Assembly: GCA_017511805.1 (NCBI GenBank)
Contig: JAFWJA010000015.1
Span: forward strand, 511,098 to 575,097
DNA: 64,000 nucleotides
Direction: 5' to 3'
DNA from: Bacilli bacterium
Lineage (GTDB): Bacteria > Bacillota_I > Bacilli_A > RF39 > UBA660
This document shows, one piece after another, positions 4,732 through 26,790 of this stretch. How positions within the stretch are numbered: the stretch's first letter is position 1; each line of letters opens with the position of its first letter. The notes under the pieces were generated by a model, which saw only the letters and a list, made by a program, of their open reading frames with translations, ran no database searches and had not been told where the DNA came from. Position numbers and translations under genes: made by a program.

Positions 4732-6345
4732 CTATTCAATAACAGATAATATTGCTGGAACTATTTGTTTCTTTCTAGAAACTAATCCATCAATATAAGT
4801 CATTTGTTCAAATGCTTCATTATTAAATCCTGACGATAATACTTCTTTAAATTCTTCTGTATATATTACAAATGAACCATTCTTAATTACATCAGTAATA
4901 GCAAGCATTGTATATTTACATCCTAAACTATCATTTACTTTTTGTAATTCATCTAAGAATGAAGTCATATCATTTTTGATTGAATCTATATCTAATGTAA
5001 ATATTTGACCAACAGCAAATTTAATATCATTTGATGTAAATGTTTTTAAATCTGATGTTATTATTTCTTCTTTAGTTTTACCTTTTAAGCTTGTACCAGC
5101 TTTAAACATTTCAACAGCGTATTTTTTATAATCTAATTTTAATTGTTTAGCAAGTTCTTCTACTACTTTCTTATCTAATTCTGTTGTAGTTGGACTTTGT
5201 AATATTAAAGTATCTGATAATATACCTGAAAGCATTAATCCAGCCATATCATTTGGTATTTTAACATCACTTTCTTTATATAATTCATGAATAATAGTAT
5301 TAGATGAACCAACAGCCATATTTCTAAAGTTAATTGGTAATTTAGTACTAACACTACTAATCTTATGATGATCTACTATTTCAACTATTTCTGCTTCTTC
5401 TATACCAGGAGCACTTTGTTCAAATTCTTGGTGGTCAACAAGTATAACTTTCTTATTATTCTTTTCAACTATATCAGTTATTCTTATTAAACCTAAACAT
5501 TTATTCTTACTATCTACAATTGGATAGTTGTTATGTTTTAATTTCTTAGTTTCTTCTACAAAGTCATCATAGAAATCTGTTTCTTTAAAGCTAATAGAAT
5601 TTTCATGTAATATAGTTTTAATTTCATTACTTAAGTTTATTAATTTAGCAGTTTCGAATGTATCTAAGCTAGTTCTAATTATATTAATTTTATTCTTTTT
5701 AGCTAATTCTAAATTTTCTTTATCTATTTCAAGTGAACCAGTTACAATTAATAATTTTACTTTACTTTCAATTGCGTATTTATGTATTTGATGTCTATCA
5801 CCTACTAATAATATATCTTTATTAGTTAAAGCAATATTATCAAAGAATGTTTTACTTTTATAAGAAGCAACAATTAAGTTACCATCTATTTCTTCATCAT
5901 ACTTTAATATTTTCTCACCATTAATAGTATTAATAATATTTTCATAAGTACTATCTAATGATTTAATATTACCACTAAACATTTCTTTAGCAATATCTTT
6001 TAAAGTAACTATACCTAAGAACTCTTTATCTTTACCTACTACTGGAACACCAGTAACAATATTCTTAGAAATAAACTCATATACTTCTTTAATTGGCATT
6101 TTTTCATCAACAAAGAATCCTTTATGATATTTAATATCTTTTAATTGTAATCTAACATCATTTAAGTATTTTGGTTCTTTAACTTTAAAATAATCTAATG
6201 CATATTTAGTTTCATCATTTACATGACCTAATACTCTAGGTTCTGTATTTAAACCAATTTGATTCTTTAAATAAGATAAAGTTATAGCCGCTGTAGTAGC
6301 ATCTGTATCTGGTCTTTGATGACCAAAGATATATATTTTTTCCAT
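4732..6345 (-). CDS. ppaC: CBS/DRTGG-domain manganese-dependent inorganic pyrophosphatase
   Basis: Family II pyrophosphatase of 537 residues, longer than the usual ~310 because a regulatory insert splits the DHH domain. The N-terminus has GHQRPDTDA. Two CBS halves lie around residues 70-125 and 240-300, with a DRTGG-like stretch between. The second metal/DHH block (VDHHKI) is near residue 332. The C-terminal DHHA2 domain ends with SRKKQIVP, the phosphate-binding signature. It hydrolyses pyrophosphate; CBS modules of such enzymes bind adenine nucleotides and adjust activity. First gene of an operon with galE. Confidence 0.95.
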   Translation of the reverse strand: MEKIYIFGHQRPDTDATTAAITLSYLKNQIGLNTEPRVLGHVNDETKYALDYFKVKEPKYLNDVRLQLKDIKYHKGFFVDEKMPIKEVYEFISKNIVTGVPVVGKDKEFLGIVTLKDIAKEMFSGNIKSLDSTYENIINTINGEKILKYDEEIDGNLIVASYKSKTFFDNIALTNKDILLVGDRHQIHKYAIESKVKLLIVTGSLEIDKENLELAKKNKINIIRTSLDTFETAKLINLSNEIKTILHENSISFKETDFYDDFVEETKKLKHNNYPIVDSKNKCLGLIRITDIVEKNNKKVILVDHQEFEQSAPGIEEAEIVEIVDHHKISSVSTKLPINFRNMAVGSSNTIIHELYKESDVKIPNDMAGLMLSGILSDTLILQSPTTTELDKKVVEELAKQLKLDYKKYAVEMFKAGTSLKGKTKEEIITSDLKTFTSNDIKFAVGQIFTLDIDSIKNDMTSFLDELQKVNDSLGCKYTMLAITDVIKNGSFVIYTEEFKEVLSSGFNNEAFEQMTYIDGLVSRKKQIVPAILSVIE

Positions 6346-14598: not shown

Positions 14599-15159
14599 CT
14601 ATAGTTTGAATTCTTTTATTACTTTATCCGCAACTTCTTCAGGAGATAGTTTCTCATTATTTATTCTTAAATAATTATCAAAATCTAGTTCTCCTTCATT
14701 AGAGTTCATTCTATATTTATCCATTGAATCCACTAACTCTTTATTACTTCTTTCAACATCTCTTTTTGTAGGTTTTTCTTTTAATCTTTCTTCAGTAACA
14801 TTTCTCTTTAGTCTTTCTTCTAAATCAGTTTCAAGTTCTACTAGATAGAATTTTCCACCATTCTTTTCATACTTTTCTTTTAAATCTTTGACATATTTAA
14901 CATCATTTTCATCATTAAAATCTATGATATAAGTAAATATTAGATCTACATCATTTTTAATAGATAGATCAAATACTTCTTTTCTTATTACATTTCTTAA
15001 TTCTTTAAATGATGGTGTACCCCAACCAAATATTCTAGAAGGTATTTCTAGACTATCATGATTAGTAGATACTGCCCAGTTTATTTTCTCTTTAATAGCT
15101 TTTGCTACAGTCATTTTACCTACTGCTTGAGGTCCACATATTATCATTAAGTTAGCCAT
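14599..15159 (-). CDS. P-loop nucleoside/small-molecule kinase-like protein
   Basis: Protein of 186 residues with a Walker A motif at the N-terminus (CGPQAVGKMT) and a lid rich in Arg/Lys (RNVTEERLKEKPTKRDVERS). This resembles shikimate/chloramphenicol-phosphotransferase-like AAA_33 kinases. The start at 15159 is set by AGGAGGTATAAT, which is made of the last codons and stop of the upstream GNAT gene; a longer frame upstream lacks this spacing. The phosphate acceptor is unknown. Together with three GNATs in the operon it suggests small-molecule modification. Confidence 0.72.
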   Translation of the reverse strand: MANLMIICGPQAVGKMTVAKAIKEKINWAVSTNHDSLEIPSRIFGWGTPSFKELRNVIRKEVFDLSIKNDVDLIFTYIIDFNDENDVKYVKDLKEKYEKNGGKFYLVELETDLEERLKRNVTEERLKEKPTKRDVERSNKELVDSMDKYRMNSNEGELDFDNYLRINNEKLSPEEVADKVIKEFKL

Positions 15160-15160
15160 A

Positions 15161-15604
15161 TTATACCTCCTTTTCAAATATTATTCTTTGTTCTTTATAC
15201 CCTAACTTATTATATAATTTAATCGCAATATCATTAAATGTATAAACATTTAATTCTATTCTTTTTACTTCTTCTTTTTTAGAAATCTTTTTGATTTTCT
15301 CCATTAACAGACTACTATATCCATTTCCTCTTTCTTTCTCGGTAACAACTAATTCATCAATCCATAAAACCTTGTTCATTTTTTCTCTTATCTCATAAGA
15401 AAGAAATCCTACTAGAACATTATCTTTATAGTAACCTATAATCTTTATTCCATTTTCTATTTGTTCAAAAACATATTCTTTTAACTCATCAATTGTTCTT
15501 TTTTTAAATATATCTTTTCTATGATTATAATGATATAAAAATCCTTCATAATAAATAGCAAAGAATAAATCATTTAAGTCTTCTTTGGTTAGTTCTCTTA
15601 TCAT
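15161..15604 (-). CDS. GNAT acetyltransferase
   Basis: Protein of 147 residues. The acetyl-CoA binding motif is ERGNGYSSLLM near residue 95, after the strand LWIDELVVTEK. The C-terminal NVYTFNDIAIKLYNKLGYKE completes the GNAT fold. It is preceded by TTAGGAGGACAT and follows the ABC permease gene by 8 bases. The substrate is unknown. Confidence 0.84.
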   Translation of the reverse strand: MIRELTKEDLNDLFFAIYYEGFLYHYNHRKDIFKKRTIDELKEYVFEQIENGIKIIGYYKDNVLVGFLSYEIREKMNKVLWIDELVVTEKERGNGYSSLLMEKIKKISKKEEVKRIELNVYTFNDIAIKLYNKLGYKEQRIIFEKEV

Positions 15605-15612
15605 ATGTCCTC

Positions 15613-16407
15613 CTAAACATTAACTACTGCCATACTGCTACTTGTATATCTTTTTAATCCTCTATTGAATAAGAATACTGCCAATATCATATTAAATACT
15701 GCAAATCCTATTAATATTAATAATTTAGTAATTGAGAAATCTTGAAATAAAGTAACTGGTAAATAAATAGCAAATCCAACTGGTATAATAGTGTGCATTA
15801 ATATAGTTACAAAGTTACCAAATACTGTATAAGGATATAAACTAAAACTTATATATGAATCAGTAAATGTTTGTTTTGTATCACTAAATCTTATAAACCA
15901 GAATGTAATACTATTTACTATTATAAAGAATGAAAGCATTATTAAAAATGAGAAGAAGGAACATATTAAGAACAATAAGAATTGAACAGGATTATGATAA
16001 TAAATAAAGAATATTATTATTCCAAATAATAAATCTCCTAAAGCAGATATTTGTGTTTTAGAAGTTAATACTCCTATTAAAGGACTTTTTGGTTTTGTTA
16101 AGTATTTATCAAGAGCACCTTGTTCAATATATTTTGCTATATTATCAACACCCGCGAAGAACAAATAAACCATTCCATATGTTACTGTACAAAGTGCAAC
16201 TGCAAGCATTTGATCTTCAAATGTATATCCACCAAAGTCTGGTTTTAAACTAAAGAATACTAACCACTGAACAACAATTGAACAGTTATTTAACATCATA
16301 AGTAATACATTCATTAAGAATGATGCTCTATTTAACATTTCTCTTTGTACATTATATTTTATTGATAATAAAATATATCTTAAATTGCTTCTAACCTCCG
16401 TTAACAT
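15613..16407 (-). CDS. ABC-2 exporter permease (COG3694-like)
   Basis: Protein of 264 residues with about six hydrophobic helices. The Gln/Lys-rich cytosolic loop IEQGALDKYLTKPKSPLIG is a signature of the ABC2_membrane_6 family. With the two upstream genes it forms the three-gene COG4586/COG4587/COG3694 exporter, whose cargo is not established. Its ATG overlaps the end of the other permease gene by 17 bases. The upstream site GGGGAGTG is weak but well placed. Confidence 0.85.
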   Translation of the reverse strand: MLTEVRSNLRYILLSIKYNVQREMLNRASFLMNVLLMMLNNCSIVVQWLVFFSLKPDFGGYTFEDQMLAVALCTVTYGMVYLFFAGVDNIAKYIEQGALDKYLTKPKSPLIGVLTSKTQISALGDLLFGIIIFFIYYHNPVQFLLFLICSFFSFLIMLSFFIIVNSITFWFIRFSDTKQTFTDSYISFSLYPYTVFGNFVTILMHTIIPVGFAIYLPVTLFQDFSITKLLILIGFAVFNMILAVFLFNRGLKRYTSSSMAVVNV

Positions 16408-17176
16408 TTAATTTTTTCACTCCCCTTCTATATACTAAATTTACTAATACTAAAACTATTGCTAAGTATATTACTTGTGCCATTAATATATAAGTTGCAT
16501 CTACTAAATTAAAATTAACTATTAATTTAGTTGGTCCATATGTAATAACATAAGCTGGTGTATATTTTAAAATACTTTGTAATACTCCTGGCATCATATC
16601 AATTGGAAAGAATACACCAAATATTAATAATAATTTGTTATATAACCAATGTAATGGTCCTGCATCTTCCATAAAGAACGCAAATAATGATATTAATATT
16701 TGTATTAAACCATTAATTGAGTATGCCAATATAAAAGATATAATCATTATTAAAGAATACTTAATTTGAAATGTTTCTAGTGGTCCAACAAATATAAAAC
16801 CAAATATAATTGATATTGGAATCATTATCATTAACCTAATTAAACCTTCAGCTAAGTAAGTAGTAAATATATAACCTATATAGCTATATGGTTTAGTCAT
16901 AATATAAGCAATAGAACCAGATTTAATTTCCTCTATAGGTCTTTCTCTAGCTACTCTACTTACACCCATCATAAATAATTCTGCAATTATCAAATACCAC
17001 ATCATTTGATTTATAGTAAAACCACCTATTTTATTTGTTCCATCATATACATAATCCCATACACAATAAAATACGAATATGTGCAAAAAATATGATATAA
17101 CTCTAAATACTACTTTTGAAAAATAAGATAACTCATTAATAAAAGTATATTTAAATATATATAAATACTTTCTCAT
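16391..17176 (-). CDS. ABC-2 exporter permease (COG4587-like)
   Basis: Protein of 261 residues with about six membrane helices. The loop ERPIEEIKSGSIAYIMTKPYSYIG is the paralogous counterpart of the loop in the neighbouring permease, suggesting a heterodimeric channel. Its start overlaps the TGA stop of the ATPase gene by four bases (ATGA), implying coupled translation. Confidence 0.86.
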   Translation of the reverse strand: MRKYLYIFKYTFINELSYFSKVVFRVISYFLHIFVFYCVWDYVYDGTNKIGGFTINQMMWYLIIAELFMMGVSRVARERPIEEIKSGSIAYIMTKPYSYIGYIFTTYLAEGLIRLMIMIPISIIFGFIFVGPLETFQIKYSLIMIISFILAYSINGLIQILISLFAFFMEDAGPLHWLYNKLLLIFGVFFPIDMMPGVLQSILKYTPAYVITYGPTKLIVNFNLVDATYILMAQVIYLAIVLVLVNLVYRRGVKKLNVNGG

Positions 17177-18153
17177 TTCTTTTCCTTTTTATATATAGAA
17201 CTAATAATATCTTCTAGTGGTATGTTAGATATATTAATATCTATAATATTATCTTGATTTAATAAATTAAGTACATCTTTTATATTCTTTTTAGTAGTAT
17301 CTACTTCAAGTTTTAAATTATAACCCTTATCTTTTAATATAGTAATACCATCTACATCATCTAAATTAACTTCTTCACTCATTTTAACTTCAATAATCTT
17401 TTTATTCATAAAATGATATTTTAATTCATCCATAGTAGTATCCATAACAATAGTTCCATCATTAACTACAATTACTCTCTTACATAATTTTTCTATATCT
17501 GATATGTCATGACTTGTTAAGAATATAGTAGTTTTAAACTCTTTATTCAATCTTTTAATAAGAGTTCTAATATTCTCTTTAACAACTGGATCAAGACCTA
17601 TAGTAGGTTCATCTAAGAATAATATTTTAGGATCATTAATTAATGCCGCAACTATCTCACATCTTATTCTTTGACCTAAACTAAGACCTCTTACAGGTGT
17701 ATTAATAAAATCCTTTAAATCAAATACGTCTATATATTCTTTAATCTTCTTTTCAATAACAGAATTTGGAATATCATACATAGTTCCAATAAATTTAAAA
17801 TTATCATATGGAGTTAAATGAAGCCATAATTGTTCTTTTTGACCAATAACAGAAGAAATCTCATAAGATAATTTCTTTCTATCTTTAGTAGGATCATATC
17901 CTAGAATATTAATTTTACCACTATCAGGATATAGAATACCTGTAAGCATCTTAATAGTAGTACTTTTTCCCGCACCATTTGGTCCAATAAATGCGATTAC
18001 TTCACCTTTTTCAACTTCAAAAGATATATTATTAACAGCTTTCTTTGTTTTATATTTAGGTTTAAATATAGCTTTAATACTACCTTTTAAACCTTTTTCT
18101 TTTTCTTTTACTCTAAACTTTTTATTTAAATGTTTTACTTCTATCACTGCCAT
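17173..18153 (-). CDS. ABC transporter ATPase (COG4586-like)
   Basis: Protein of 326 residues. Walker A is GPNGAGKST near residue 58, the signature motif is LSLGQRIR, and Walker B is ILFLDEPTIGLD. The H-loop is in LTSHDISD. The ~80-residue C-terminal extension after the nucleotide-binding domain is common in exporters of this group. ATG at 18153 is preferred over a GTG nine bases upstream because AGGGAG precedes it. First gene of an operon of eight. Confidence 0.9.
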   Translation of the reverse strand: MAVIEVKHLNKKFRVKEKEKGLKGSIKAIFKPKYKTKKAVNNISFEVEKGEVIAFIGPNGAGKSTTIKMLTGILYPDSGKINILGYDPTKDRKKLSYEISSVIGQKEQLWLHLTPYDNFKFIGTMYDIPNSVIEKKIKEYIDVFDLKDFINTPVRGLSLGQRIRCEIVAALINDPKILFLDEPTIGLDPVVKENIRTLIKRLNKEFKTTIFLTSHDISDIEKLCKRVIVVNDGTIVMDTTMDELKYHFMNKKIIEVKMSEEVNLDDVDGITILKDKGYNLKLEVDTTKKNIKDVLNLLNQDNIIDINISNIPLEDIISSIYKKEKK

Positions 18154-18182
18154 AATCTTCACTCTCCCTATTTTATACTTTA

Positions 18183-18188
18183 ATTATA
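18183..18188 (-). promoter_or_regulatory. Extended -10 promoter of the exporter/GNAT operon
   Basis: TTTGTTATAAT with the -10 at 18183-18188, beginning in the T-tract of the preceding terminator. A TG dinucleotide precedes the hexamer by one base. Confidence 0.5.
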
Positions 18189-18190
18189 AC

Positions 18191-18226
18191 AAAAAAATGT
18201 TAATAAGAATAATCTTACTAACATTT
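18191..18226 (-). terminator. Terminator of the 158-residue unknown gene
   Basis: AAATGTTA/TAACATTT (18195-18202 with 18219-18226), then one mismatch, then TAAGA/TCTTA form a long stem followed by seven T on the minus strand. Confidence 0.85.
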
Positions 18227-18236
18227 AGTTTAAAGT

Positions 18237-18713
18237 TTACGCTTTTTTTTGTAATATAAATCCATCACTTAATTCTTTACTAATTTTATCAGTAATAGAA
18301 TAAGCTATTTCATTAATATTTTTTGTATCACAATTAGAAGTACCAATAGATAACGCAATTAAAGCTTTATATCTTTTTTCATCACCTATTTTAAATTTAT
18401 CTACCAGATATTTATAATGAGGATTATCTGGTTTACTTAAATCAAAATACTCAGATGAATTAAATACTTTTCTTTCATGATATAGATCTTCGATTAATCC
18501 TGCGAATAATAAAGTACCTATATCCTTTTGAAAACCTATCTCTTCTAACTTTTCTAACGCAACTAAACTAATATTAGTTTTTTTATTCTTTTCTTCTTGA
18601 ATTGATTCATTTCTCGCTGTTAAATAAATATCTTTTTCATCTTGTCCTTGTTCTAATAATGATTCGACTAGTTCATCTAAATCATCATAATAATATAAAA
18701 ATCTGTCTTTCAA
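18237..18713 (-). CDS. Unknown soluble protein behind a structured leader
   Basis: Protein of 158 residues, predicted mostly helical, with no membrane segment and no family I recognise. It begins MKDRFLYYYDDLDELVESL. The second half has a DEKRYKALIALSIGTSNCDT stretch that looks like a regular helical domain. It starts with TTG behind AAAGGAG. The gene stands alone between a consensus promoter with a 137-nt leader and a strong terminator, so it is a separately regulated unit whose control is probably post-initiation. Confidence 0.65.
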   Translation of the reverse strand: MKDRFLYYYDDLDELVESLLEQGQDEKDIYLTARNESIQEEKNKKTNISLVALEKLEEIGFQKDIGTLLFAGLIEDLYHERKVFNSSEYFDLSKPDNPHYKYLVDKFKIGDEKRYKALIALSIGTSNCDTKNINEIAYSITDKISKELSDGFILQKKA

Positions 18714-18850
18714 TATAATCTTCTCCTTTCTTAAGTTTATTCGCGTAAGGCAAAGAAAAACACGAAAATCAACTTATATAGCGACTCCGTGTTATACGTG
18801 TAGGTTTCCCCGAGATAGCTCACAAAATATTGCTTATATCTCCTCACTTG
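18714..18850 (-). ncRNA. Structured 5' leader RNA, class not identified
   Basis: A 137-nt untranslated leader precedes the TTG start at 18713. GAGATA/TATCTC pair at 18812-18817 and 18837-18842. A terminator-like hairpin is formed by ACACG (18788-18792 on the minus strand) and CGTGT (18760-18764), followed by T5CT3. An identical ACACG nine bases upstream (18797-18801) offers a competing partner, so alternative folds are possible. The arrangement is that of a riboswitch or attenuator, but it does not match the consensus of any class I can recall. Confidence 0.5.
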
Positions 18851-18856
18851 TTTTTG

Positions 18857-18885
18857 ATTATATAAAATTTTTATTTTTTTGTCAA
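18857..18885 (-). promoter_or_regulatory. Consensus promoter of the structured leader
   Basis: TTGACA (18880-18885), exactly 17 bases, TATAAT (18857-18862). This is the only perfect consensus promoter noted in the window. It starts three bases after the preceding gene's stop codon. Confidence 0.8.
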
Positions 18886-22171: not shown

Positions 22172-22196
22172 AAAAAAAAAGTAGAGTATTTCTACT
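22172..22196 (-). terminator. Terminator of the large surface-protein genes
   Basis: AGTAGA (22180-22185) pairs with TCTACT (22191-22196) across five bases and is followed by nine T on the minus strand. Confidence 0.75.
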
Positions 22197-25100
22197 CAAC
22201 TTTCTTTTTATTATTTGACTTTAATCTAACAATAATTAAGCTTCCTAAAATAACTACTATTCCACCTATTATTAAGCCATATTTAATTCTATCTATTCCT
22301 GTTGAAATATTAACAATTAATTCTGCACTTGCTTGTGGTTTTATAGATATTTTTTCAGTCTTAGGTTTGTTAGCAATTAATGAATTACCAATTACACTAC
22401 CATTTTCATCTACATAGAATACCGCAACATTTATTTCTTTCTTAGGTAATTCCATACCTGCTGGAGCTTTTGTTTCAACTATTCTATATTGACCTTCTTC
22501 TAAATAGTAAACTGTTGCTTCACCATTTAGTGTTCTAATAACTTTATTTTCACTAGTTGGATCTACTTTATAATATAGTTTTCCATTTAATTCTTCTTCA
22601 GTTACAGTTAAATCTTCATATTTCTTATTTTGATTTAATTTTTGAAGTTTATATTCTCCACCATCTATTAAGTTATTATGATCATCAAACTTATAGAATG
22701 TAAAGTGTGTTGGTTTATTTACTAAGTCTTTACCTGTATCAACTACATCACTAGTTTGTTTAATTTCTACTTCAACAAATCTATCATTTTCATCTTCTGG
22801 TAAACTATGTCCTTTTGGAGCTTTAACTTCTTCAATAACATAACATTTACCATAATCAAGATATTGAATTAGAATTTCACCAGCTTGCATTTCTACTCTT
22901 TCATTATTTTGATTAACACTCTTATCAAAATCAACATGTGTATCTACATATTCATCTAATGTTAGAGTTGAAACTATATCACTACATTTATTATCTGGTC
23001 TATCTGTACATGTTATTAGAGTATCAGTATCTTTTACTTCTCTATTTTCATAAACACCATCTCTTATAGTTTTTAATCTTAATAATGTTTTTTCTTTATC
23101 TTTTGGTTTAACAGGTCCACCACAAGTTGTAGATTCATATACTCTAAATTCAGCACCCTCTAATAAATTACCTTGTTCATCATATTTCTTAATTAATAAT
23201 GATGTTGGCTTATTAGGTACATCTATTTCATCAACTTGTACTGTTGTTGTTGAAATAGTAAATGCTGTTTCTGCATTTCTTCCAGTAGGTAATCTATATC
23301 CTTTTGGAGATGCAGTTTCAAGTAATACATAATTATAACCAGCTTCCATATATCTTAAAACTAGTTTACCATGATATGGGTGTAATGAAGTAACTGAATC
23401 AGTAACATTATCTACATTAGTAACTGTTCTATATACTTCTACACCAGAATCTTCTTCATCTCCATTGATAACACTTCTAGGATTAAACTTAACTAATGTC
23501 ATTCCTACTGCTGATCTTTCTTCTACTGTATCATAATCACTTGGATGACATTCTACGCCCTCAGCACATCTATATACTTCAAATGTAGTAGTTTCATCAT
23601 TAATTAATGTACCATATTTACTATCTCTCTTCTCAAAGATTACTCTTGTTGGTTTATCATTAATTACAACTGTTTCAGATGGTTTTGGTTGTGAAGGAGA
23701 TTCATTACAACAGTCTAATTCTATTTTAACTGTTCTTTCTGCTTCTGTTTCTGGTAATATGAATACTGATTTACCAGATACACTGATCTCTTCTATATAC
23801 CAATCTCTTCCTCTACATAAATGTGTAATATTAATATGTCCACCACAAGTATGTATTTCTTCTGTTAAATCAGATCTAGTTTGATCTGCTACATACATAT
23901 AATTTGAATGACTAGCATCTGTAGTACAAGAGCCAGTATTATCTGTTCTTAATAGTTTAACATAATGTTTAACTCCACCTTCTAAGTAATATACTTTGAA
24001 AGTTATTTCATCAAATGCACTTCTTTCTTCATCATTTTCAAATTTAACAGTATCACTAGGATCTACAGTTTTATAGAAATCATCTTTAGTAAATTCAACT
24101 TTTGTTGGAACATTTTCTAATTCTTTTGTAGCTACTCCTGCTCTACATGAATCTATTTCAGTAGAACTACTTGGTGAACTACATTTAGTTATTTCAAATT
24201 CAAATATTCTCTTATTTTGTTCAGAATACTTAGGTGCATAATATCCATAACAATTAGTTGCTGATGGACTTGTACAAGACGAATCACAACAACAATCCTC
24301 TTCTCTAATTGTGTATTTACCAACTGGTAAATGATATACAATTATTTTTCTATTATCGTTAAGATGTAATTCTTGTGTTGATGCACCTGTTGGTCCATCT
24401 ATATTATTATGTGCATATTCATATACACCTGGTGTTGATGTTGAAATTACATCAACTTTATTTCCACTATTATCATATATAGCAAATGGTATATTCTTTA
24501 ATTCAGCTGTTATAATTGCTTGAATATCAGGATCATTGCTTTCATCTGATACAGTCTTTGTAAATTCAAATTCTGTTCTATAGTTAGTAAACTTATTATT
24601 ATTACTCATAGCTTGTCTACTATCAGATGTTGTAAAACTCTTATGATCAGTATTACCAAAAGTATGATAATCTAGTGGTTTAGTTTCTGTAGCAGTATAT
24701 GTACCAACTGGTAACTTAATAACACATACCTCTCCAACATCAATATCATAACCAGATGAAGTATCTGAATTAGATACTAATGTAGATGCATCTGCTTTTC
24801 TTGTTACCATTTCATCAAATATATAACAACCTTTTGTACCAGTATTAGTAGAACGAGTACTTTTTACTTTAACATAATCACCATCTGAATCTGTTAATAC
24901 AAATTCTGCTCCACCTTTTTTATCTCCATCTTCATCTACTTTATAAAAATTTAATACTGATGACTTATTTATTAATTTATTATTTGGATTTGGTGAACCA
25001 GTTACCATATTATATGCAGATATTCCTGTTATACTTCCACCTTCAAATACATAACCTTCACTACTAGATTGTTCTTCTGCAACATAAGTCACACTATTTG

Positions 25101-26790
25101 CACCTGGAATTCTTGCAATACATATTTCACCATTTGAATCAGTTGTCATAGTTGTACCAGAAGAACTAGTTCCTTTGTAAACATAACAATTATCATAATT
25201 AGATGATCTAGCAGAAACAGTAATATAATTTGATGCTCCTGTAGCCTTTACTTTAAATTTAACTCCAGAAATACCATTTCCATCTTCATCTACTTTATAG
25301 AAACCTATACCATATGGTGCATTAGTTTTCTCTTTTGTAACACATGAACTTGTTGAACCATCATTTGTAGTAGCTTTTGAACAAGTACTTGTTGAAACGT
25401 AAGTTGATACACCACCTACTTCTTTATAATAATAATCTGTTTCAGTTGATAAACCAGTAAACTTTGCTATACCATCAGCATTTGTTGTTTTTGTAGCAAC
25501 AGCTGTTCCTGTACAATCAGAAGTTGTATATAAACTAAATTTAACTCCCTTTATATTATATGATGGTTTTTTAGCATCAGATTTTTCAATTTCAATACAA
25601 GTTTCTGTTTCTTCAGTTCCTGTATTCGTAACTTTCACTTTTTTATAATTATAACTACTTGGTGTTTTAAAAATTCCATCAGTAAAATCTACAATACCAT
25701 AGACACATCCATCAGCAGGACACGTCGTATCTTCCGTATCATAAACCGTGACATCCTGCTCCGGTGATGTTGTAGTTTCGGTATATGAAACTACATAACC
25801 AGTAGAATTTGACTCCCATATACAATAAACTTTATCTATATCTAATAATGCTTCTCCATCTTCCGAATCACTAGATGGATCATCTCTTTTCCAACCTAAA
25901 TAATACTTGTTACCTTTTCTATAACCAGTGTTACCAGTATCTGTTCTAGCTACTGCACCAGATAGATTTTTACATTGATAAGTTCCATTAATAAGGTTTG
26001 CTTCATATAATCTAAATTTTCTTGCTGTAGAATCTGAAGTTCCTTCTGGTTCATATACTTTATCTAATTCTATATATGCTTTTGGAGTTGTATATGTCCA
26101 AAATAGAATATCTTGATATGATTCACCATAATCTACATAATATATTTTTAAATTATCAAATTTCTTTTGATTAAATATTAAACCATTTGCAGTAGGATTT
26201 ACAAGTTTATCTTGCATATGTTTTAAACCTGTTATTTGATAATCTTTTAATCCTCTATCTCCTTGATATCCTTCTGAATGATAAGCTAAAGCTATTAAAG
26301 CATGTGAATATGCATATAAAAGATTCTCATTATCTACGTCTTCACCTTCACTAGATTTTATTACTCCTTCACTAACAAACATTTGCTTTATCGTTTCTTT
26401 ATTTTCTTCCCATCCTGGACCGCCATATAGGAAATATAAAAAATATTTATGAGATGTATTATTCCATACTATTAATTCCCCCTTATTATTATATGATTCA
26501 GTATGTCCAGTAATTGATTCATTCTTAGGTGCTTTTTCATTTGGATCAAGACAAAATGCATTATTTGTTCCTAAATCATTTGGTACTCCATTTACCTTGA
26601 ATAATGGTGTCCAACCTTTAGGAGATTTATGTCCATATTTTACTTGACTAACACTAGTATCGTGATAAATACTACCTGTAATAGTAACATCACTTGCTGA
26701 TACTTTATTATTGCTATAAAGTAACATACCTACAGTAATCAGACCTATTATTATTAAACTAATACTTATTATTCTTATTTTATTTTTCAT
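22192..26790 (-). CDS. Giant surface protein with repeated CnaB/SpaA-like domains
   Basis: Protein of 1532 residues. A signal peptide (residues 1-33) is followed by a region resembling a thioester adhesin domain (Cys80 in AFCLDPN, YGGPG near 123). At least seven prealbumin-like CnaB/SpaA repeats follow, most opening with forms of FYKVDEDGN or LIKKYDEQGN and closing with forms of VETKAPAGM, where Lys and Glu would form isopeptide bonds. The C-terminus has NISTG (1494-1498), a membrane helix and a KSNNKKK tail, i.e. a sortase signal that departs from LPXTG. Expected to be wall-anchored, pilin- or adhesin-like. Unusually rich in Cys (EEDCCCDSSC). Confidence 0.88.
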   Translation of the reverse strand: MKNKIRIISISLIIIGLITVGMLLYSNNKVSASDVTITGSIYHDTSVSQVKYGHKSPKGWTPLFKVNGVPNDLGTNNAFCLDPNEKAPKNESITGHTESYNNKGELIVWNNTSHKYFLYFLYGGPGWEENKETIKQMFVSEGVIKSSEGEDVDNENLLYAYSHALIALAYHSEGYQGDRGLKDYQITGLKHMQDKLVNPTANGLIFNQKKFDNLKIYYVDYGESYQDILFWTYTTPKAYIELDKVYEPEGTSDSTARKFRLYEANLINGTYQCKNLSGAVARTDTGNTGYRKGNKYYLGWKRDDPSSDSEDGEALLDIDKVYCIWESNSTGYVVSYTETTTSPEQDVTVYDTEDTTCPADGCVYGIVDFTDGIFKTPSSYNYKKVKVTNTGTEETETCIEIEKSDAKKPSYNIKGVKFSLYTTSDCTGTAVATKTTNADGIAKFTGLSTETDYYYKEVGGVSTYVSTSTCSKATTNDGSTSSCVTKEKTNAPYGIGFYKVDEDGNGISGVKFKVKATGASNYITVSARSSNYDNCYVYKGTSSSGTTMTTDSNGEICIARIPGANSVTYVAEEQSSSEGYVFEGGSITGISAYNMVTGSPNPNNKLINKSSVLNFYKVDEDGDKKGGAEFVLTDSDGDYVKVKSTRSTNTGTKGCYIFDEMVTRKADASTLVSNSDTSSGYDIDVGEVCVIKLPVGTYTATETKPLDYHTFGNTDHKSFTTSDSRQAMSNNNKFTNYRTEFEFTKTVSDESNDPDIQAIITAELKNIPFAIYDNSGNKVDVISTSTPGVYEYAHNNIDGPTGASTQELHLNDNRKIIVYHLPVGKYTIREEDCCCDSSCTSPSATNCYGYYAPKYSEQNKRIFEFEITKCSSPSSSTEIDSCRAGVATKELENVPTKVEFTKDDFYKTVDPSDTVKFENDEERSAFDEITFKVYYLEGGVKHYVKLLRTDNTGSCTTDASHSNYMYVADQTRSDLTEEIHTCGGHINITHLCRGRDWYIEEISVSGKSVFILPETEAERTVKIELDCCNESPSQPKPSETVVINDKPTRVIFEKRDSKYGTLINDETTTFEVYRCAEGVECHPSDYDTVEERSAVGMTLVKFNPRSVINGDEEDSGVEVYRTVTNVDNVTDSVTSLHPYHGKLVLRYMEAGYNYVLLETASPKGYRLPTGRNAETAFTISTTTVQVDEIDVPNKPTSLLIKKYDEQGNLLEGAEFRVYESTTCGGPVKPKDKEKTLLRLKTIRDGVYENREVKDTDTLITCTDRPDNKCSDIVSTLTLDEYVDTHVDFDKSVNQNNERVEMQAGEILIQYLDYGKCYVIEEVKAPKGHSLPEDENDRFVEVEIKQTSDVVDTGKDLVNKPTHFTFYKFDDHNNLIDGGEYKLQKLNQNKKYEDLTVTEEELNGKLYYKVDPTSENKVIRTLNGEATVYYLEEGQYRIVETKAPAGMELPKKEINVAVFYVDENGSVIGNSLIANKPKTEKISIKPQASAELIVNISTGIDRIKYGLIIGGIVVILGSLIIVRLKSNNKKKVE

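Follow-up and report, generated by a model that had tools for sequence, protein, structure and literature searches.

The window, the whole 64,000-nt stretch of contig JAFWJA010000015.1 (assembly GCA_017511805.1, Bacilli bacterium) that was analysed, carries on its minus strand a promoter, a structured leader and a run of exporter-type genes, listed here from the promoter onward in window coordinates.

18857-18885, minus strand: sigma-70-type promoter, TTGACA-17-TATAAT, 12/12 consensus match
18780-18850, minus strand: aptamer-like core with helices PA, P1, P2, P3 and P4 (consensus, covariation, MFE, covariance-model matches)
18844-18848, minus strand: PA 5' strand AGUGA, pairing with UCGCU at 18784-18780
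18812-18842, minus strand: P1, GAGAUA/UAUCUC, topped by a conserved UAA...AGC internal loop and the variable P2
18802-18811, minus strand: P3, a GGG/CCU hairpin adjoining P1 (95% of cells paired; outer extension covaries)
18788-18798, minus strand: P4, CGU/ACG, of variable length among relatives, its 3' strand common to the terminator
18780-18784, minus strand: PA 3' strand UCGCU, the switching strand, with AGUGA (core) or the terminator 3' arm as partner
18756-18793, minus strand: intrinsic terminator (hairpin 18793-18759, U-run 18760-18756)
18237-18713, minus strand: first gene, 158-aa Spo0A C-terminal-domain-like protein (TTG start, Shine-Dalgarno AAAGGAG)
17173-18162, minus strand: ABC exporter ATPase, DrrA-like (Pfam ABC_tran; best NCBIfam match drrA, below its cut-off)
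15613-17176, minus strand: two ABC-2 permeases (ABC2_membrane_6, Pfam PF06182)
15161-15604, minus strand: GNAT acetyltransferase (Pfam Acetyltransf_1), adjacent and on the same strand

The promoter has TTGACA at 18885-18880 and TATAAT at 18862-18857 with a 17-nt spacer, exactly as the first-pass annotation had read it from the letters. The expected start site lies near 18850, so that the RNA would begin just 5' of the closing stem, with CAAGUGAGGAGAUAUAAG as the predicted transcript 5' end. Among 194 members of the class, 150 have a -10 box matching at 5/6 or more positions within 25 nt upstream, against 107 in shuffles, and the median gap from this box to the conserved GUGAG is 10 nt.

The Shine-Dalgarno sequence is followed by six adjacent same-strand genes (14599-18713), the sixth encoding a 192-aa protein with a P-loop-like start. 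The product of the first gene had initially been described as a protein without known likeness, a description that no longer holds: its AF2 model (pLDDT 78.5), compared with the PDB, superposed on the C-terminal domain of Spo0A (1lq1 and 1fc3, Z 10.8 and 10.7, next best 4.3 (VIA); 95 residues at rmsd 2.4 for 1lq1), and the protein thus models as having the Spo0A effector-domain fold. Foldseek alone gave no significant match for this protein, no sequence match to PF08769 was found at cut-off (best E 0.055, in 1/12 relatives), and profile searches of the two small-protein families found behind the RNA against PDB chain sequences gave no matches. A separate, true Spo0A-type gene is present in the same genome. 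Stand-alone proteins of these two related families, one of them modelled as Spo0A-C-like, are the first genes at L104, L109, L146, L150, L157, L164, L175, L189 and the window, and stand between the RNA and ABC-2 exporter operons, mostly in uncultured gut Bacilli. A literature search on the exporter family of the window in the role of viologen exporter gave nothing usable. Elsewhere in the window, the minus strand encodes at 22192-26790 a surface-type protein of 1532 aa, with numerous domain repeats and an anchor-like segment at its C-terminus.

For the first 71 nt of the window leader, the MFE structure was exactly the core (-15.1 kcal/mol), in which PA (AGUGA/UCGCU) closes a junction holding P1 (GAGAUA/UAUCUC, bearing P2), P3 (GGG/CCU) and P4 (CGU/ACG). 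The GAGATA/TATCTC stem noted earlier is P1 (18842-18837 / 18817-18812). Since the whole leader is not more stable than its shuffles (z = -0.96), fold energy was not used as evidence, and the case for the structure rests on relatives. Across members, the core spans 70-110 nt with five helices, the RNA starting at or near it, and conserves GUGAG, the UAAG/AGC internal loop, UACAC and GGAGUC, the junction nucleotides being nearly invariant in sequence comparison.

Conservation of the stems in relatives, on which the initial proposal depended, was borne out by covariation, and the structure recurred with compensatory changes in about 195 distinct leaders. In a sequence-only MAFFT alignment of 17 leaders, 92.8% of cells were paired, with both-side changes at 17/23 pairs, and only 27-42% were paired after the strands were slid. 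In an alignment of 93 members, itself fitted to the covariance model, 93.9% of 2,077 cells were paired, 455 cells showed two-sided changes against 161 in shuffled data, and pairing was again lost on sliding. P1 was paired in 99.6% of cells with two-sided changes at all six pairs, and P4 in 91.7% with two-sided changes at 3/4 pairs. Mutual information, computed without supplying the structure on an alignment that was likewise fitted to the covariance model, ranked eight P1-P3 pairs at the top and recovered P4 too. PA is short and mostly invariant, so that its covariation rests on few compensatory variants (AGCGA/UCGCU, AACGA/UCGUU, CGUGA/UCACG and UAAGA/UCUUA). Two divergent Clostridia members (L221 1501-1611 and L222 1501-1608) are closed by UARGA/UCUUA stems, have a longer P4 region and are possibly a subclass.

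The terminator-like hairpin of the first-pass annotation is present at about 18793-18759 and is directly followed by GTGTTTTTCTTT; its 5' arm consists of the second ACACG (18792-18788) and GAGUC. For the class, a U-run was found within 85 nt of GAGUC in 188/193 members, against 75 after shuffling, and the region before it had a mean hairpin energy of -18.3 kcal/mol (-7.4 shuffled); a few members, for example L082 and L071, have no recognisable terminator. The UCAC strand of PA lies inside the terminator 5' arm in 170/188 members and the P4 3' strand in 130/188, and at least one of the two is reused as this arm in 187/188, so that core and terminator exclude each other. In computed folding of the growing window leader, the probability of PA was 0.92-0.99 up to nt 83 and collapsed as the terminator arm emerged, and that of the terminator was 0.99 from nt 92. 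As a side observation, the 3' arm of the terminator has a second possible partner in the segment just before the Shine-Dalgarno sequence (UUCGUG/CGCGAA in the window, 18735-18770; UUCGUGG/CCACGAA elsewhere), possibly as a post-readthrough hairpin; these pairing runs were 6.9 in Bacilli against 6.0 in shuffled tails, and in Clostridia they were not longer than in shuffled tails.

Homologous leaders turned up when 98 related genomes were searched at the DNA level; they occur within the genus and in further genera of the family, and the genes that follow them often differ. Using a covariance model built from the MAFFT alignment, the element was located in 60/386 genomes of the window's family (37/150 genera) and in 7/395 genomes of a class-wide sample, all seven belonging to that family. 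A second covariance model located it in 24/391 genomes of the class Clostridia, with six copies in one, and a pattern scan of named genomes gave Tissierella simiarum, Alkaliphilus transvaalensis, Lutispora, Clostridium senegalense, Sporosalibacterium and Thermoanaerobacterium saccharolyticum as carriers. On this sequence evidence, the RNA class spans Bacilli and Clostridia, and its carriers include many gut and anaerobic bacteria. The DNA-pattern match in L174 is not recovered by the covariance model and was discarded as a false positive. The 27 tandem pairs, whose elements lie within 350 nt of each other, include L079, L087, L093, L102, L117, L124, L134, L142, L149 and L015 (1478-1547 and 1599-1667), and in some pairs the first copy is of the GAGAUA type and the second has a different P1.

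Of the 36 non-redundant first genes in Clostridia, at least 21 encode GNAT acetyltransferases, and others encode MFS and ABC exporters, methyltransferases and glutaminyl-tRNA synthetase (GlnRS). In Bacilli, the targets are GNATs, DrrA-like ABC-2 exporters, S66 and S51 peptidases, a nucleotidyltransferase and the two small-protein families described above. One GNAT family occurs in 7/221 genomes, with the RNA directly upstream in five. A leuA-like gene at L171 was not counted as a target, because a distinct leader peptide rich in Leu (MFIVSNTTNLLLNLLLRL) and a further attenuator-like hairpin intervene between the element and this gene (about 6050-6260, minus strand).

At the element, whether in the window or at the other scanned loci, no Rfam 15 family scored as high as its gathering threshold, and a relaxed scan (E up to 5-10) returned nothing credible there, in agreement with the original view that the leader belongs to no described class; scans of the same DNA did recover true T-boxes, TPP, c-di-GMP-II and NiCo elements. 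Alignments of CRISPR-DR47, preQ1-II and PYLIS_5 to the window leader were at chance level and not reproduced in relatives; for PreQ1-II (RF01054), the alignment scored 16.8 bits (E = 2.3) against a gathering score of 47 bits, and its pairs do not match the conserved helices of the new RNA. In classical transcriptional ON riboswitches, such as the adenine pbuE type, the aptamer uses the strand that would otherwise form the terminator 5' arm, and the new RNA is alike in this respect but differs in fold and conserved nucleotides and has no Rfam match. It shares with T-box leaders (RF00230) the choice between terminator and antiterminator, but has no RF00230 match, shows neither a stem I nor a UGGN antiterminator, and is about half as long.

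No matching motif appears in the main-text passages covered from PMC11109978, PMC8632094, PMC6429828, PMC2864571, PMC8040213, PMC9788692 and PMC7736828; an unnamed earlier listing, for example in a supplement, is possible. Going by the main-text descriptions, guanidine-IV and Gd4v (PMC7736828, PMC9788692) resemble the new RNA in being leaders, mainly of Firmicutes, that have a Rho-independent terminator and are presumed to act as ON switches, and in having GNAT and drug-efflux genes downstream. In these descriptions, Gd4v is an orphan enriched in gut bacteria, and it is the nearest published orphan by gene content within the texts covered. Guanidine-IV and Gd4v are presented there as two hairpins with a pseudoknot, the terminator hairpin lying inside the binding structure (PMC7736828, PMC9788692), whereas in the new RNA a five-helix junction excludes the terminator, and this published architecture sets them apart. 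A further difference is that neither sugE nor a PRK07324 transaminase was found among the first genes examined for the new RNA.

Taken together, the leader is probably a new class of transcription-terminating ON riboswitch, with a toxic compound or a toxic-stress signal as its ligand. As in riboswitches, the 5' leader carries what by sequence appears to be a conserved, structured aptamer domain and an expression platform that excludes it (187/188 members, and modelled for the window leader). By sequence comparison, P1/P2, P3 and P4 are held in a junction by the short closing stem PA (GUGA/UCAC). Without ligand, the terminator would prevail and end transcription after about 95 nt of leader; binding of a small molecule in the junction would stabilise PA, block the terminator and allow the operon to be transcribed, which according to the main text of PMC7736828 is the usual arrangement of ON riboswitches with Rho-independent terminators. 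In the window, the Spo0A-C-like protein, the DrrA-like ABC-2 exporter and the GNAT would be placed under the switch. The toxic nature of the ligand is suggested by the exporters, acetyltransferases, methyltransferases, MccF-like peptidases and duplicate GlnRS found downstream. If this reading is correct, a riboswitch-like orphan class that occurs in two bacterial classes and that Rfam lacks would be a genuine gain; its fold is compact, its switching strand is explicit and its gene set suggests a role in detoxification. The identity of the ligand would name a toxic compound that gut and anaerobic bacteria encounter so frequently that they retain a dedicated RNA sensor for it, and would help to assign many unnamed GNATs and ABC-2 exporters and the duplicate GlnRS.

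The first-pass annotation had proposed an unclassified leader of the attenuator or riboswitch type with mutually exclusive folds. This general proposal is supported, the conserved alternation being that of PA (AGUGA/UCRCU) and P4 with the terminator. The specific switch that it had drawn, in which one CGTGT arm (18764-18760) chooses between two identical ACACG partners (18792-18788 and 18801-18797), fared less well. All three sequences are there and both pairings are possible in the window leader, but the first ACACG belongs to the invariant UACAC-G of the core and persists in members with a terminator arm unable to pair with it (for example L007 and L011), UACAC being retained also where the arm is UUCGUGGC or similar and pairs elsewhere. 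The toggle is thus not a conserved switch, and as the mechanism of the class it is very improbable, since the conserved conflict is that of PA and P4 with the terminator. Equally improbable are an unregulated terminator that has a fold upstream of it by chance, and a DNA element that is mobile or repeated; tandem copies and a patchy distribution would suit such an origin, but two-sided covariation extends across two bacterial classes, the genome of the window has one full copy, viral, phage and plasmid collections gave no match to the element, and the order of promoter, element, terminator and gene is consistent.

The mutually exclusive folds fit equally well with an attenuator whose core is bound by an RNA-binding protein, in place of a small molecule, so that termination is prevented; the core could equally be stabilised in this way, and in Bacilli members the first gene often encodes a protein of DNA-binding-type fold (Spo0A-C-like). 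In Clostridia, however, the RNA precedes many unrelated genes with no common protein encoded alongside, the invariant positions fall within a compact junction and an internal loop, as would be expected of an aptamer, and tandem copies are a riboswitch habit, which together make a protein effector unlikely, though less so than the other alternatives to a small-molecule riboswitch. More doubtful still is attenuation mediated by a tRNA or a ribosome, in which the core would sense uncharged tRNA or a stalled ribosome. It draws on the three genomes in which the RNA stands 5' of a GlnRS, in each case a second copy, and on G825, in which a related GlnRS is preceded by a T-box instead of the RNA. Most controlled genes are, however, unrelated to tRNA charging, neither a T-box nor any other Rfam family matches at the element, and P1 varies in sequence with its pairing kept, so that it is not coding. 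Nor were leaders enriched in start codons with a Shine-Dalgarno sequence, ORFs of this kind being present in 49 leaders and in 57 after shuffling.

For the riboswitch reading, the GlnRS copies also bear on the nature of the ligand. The RNA-linked copies group apart from the housekeeping ones (support 100/100) and carry HIGS where housekeeping GlnRS has HIGH, as does the T-box-preceded relative in G825. Among the 391 sampled genomes, five were seen to have a HIGS-type GlnRS, and the RNA is present in four of these five (Fisher p = 5e-5, uncorrected for kinship; GlnRS read at the 30 best loci only). The ligand might be an antibiotic-like attacker of aminoacyl-tRNA synthetases, of the aminoacyl-nucleotide or glutamine-analogue type, which would induce a resistance set of RimL/MccE-like GNATs, an MccF-like S66 peptidase, exporters and the duplicate HIGS GlnRS. 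This proposal, tentative and rather unlikely, is the most specific one consistent with the duplicate GlnRS, with GNATs of the RimL type and with the S66 peptidase, which we take to be of the MccF type, though the cases are few. Were the ligand an antibiotic, the RNA would join the very few natural RNA switches that respond to such a compound. The HIGS GlnRS subfamily, mostly a second copy, was seen in some Clostridia (L247, L248, L249, L250, L251, L263 and L239), and the leaders 5' of it are this RNA, a T-box (L251) or another terminator-like leader (L249). At L247 and L239, a short ORF lies between the element and the start of the HIGS-type GlnRS, with ...KGFCTMQIYQ... in common, and is perhaps a further leader peptide.
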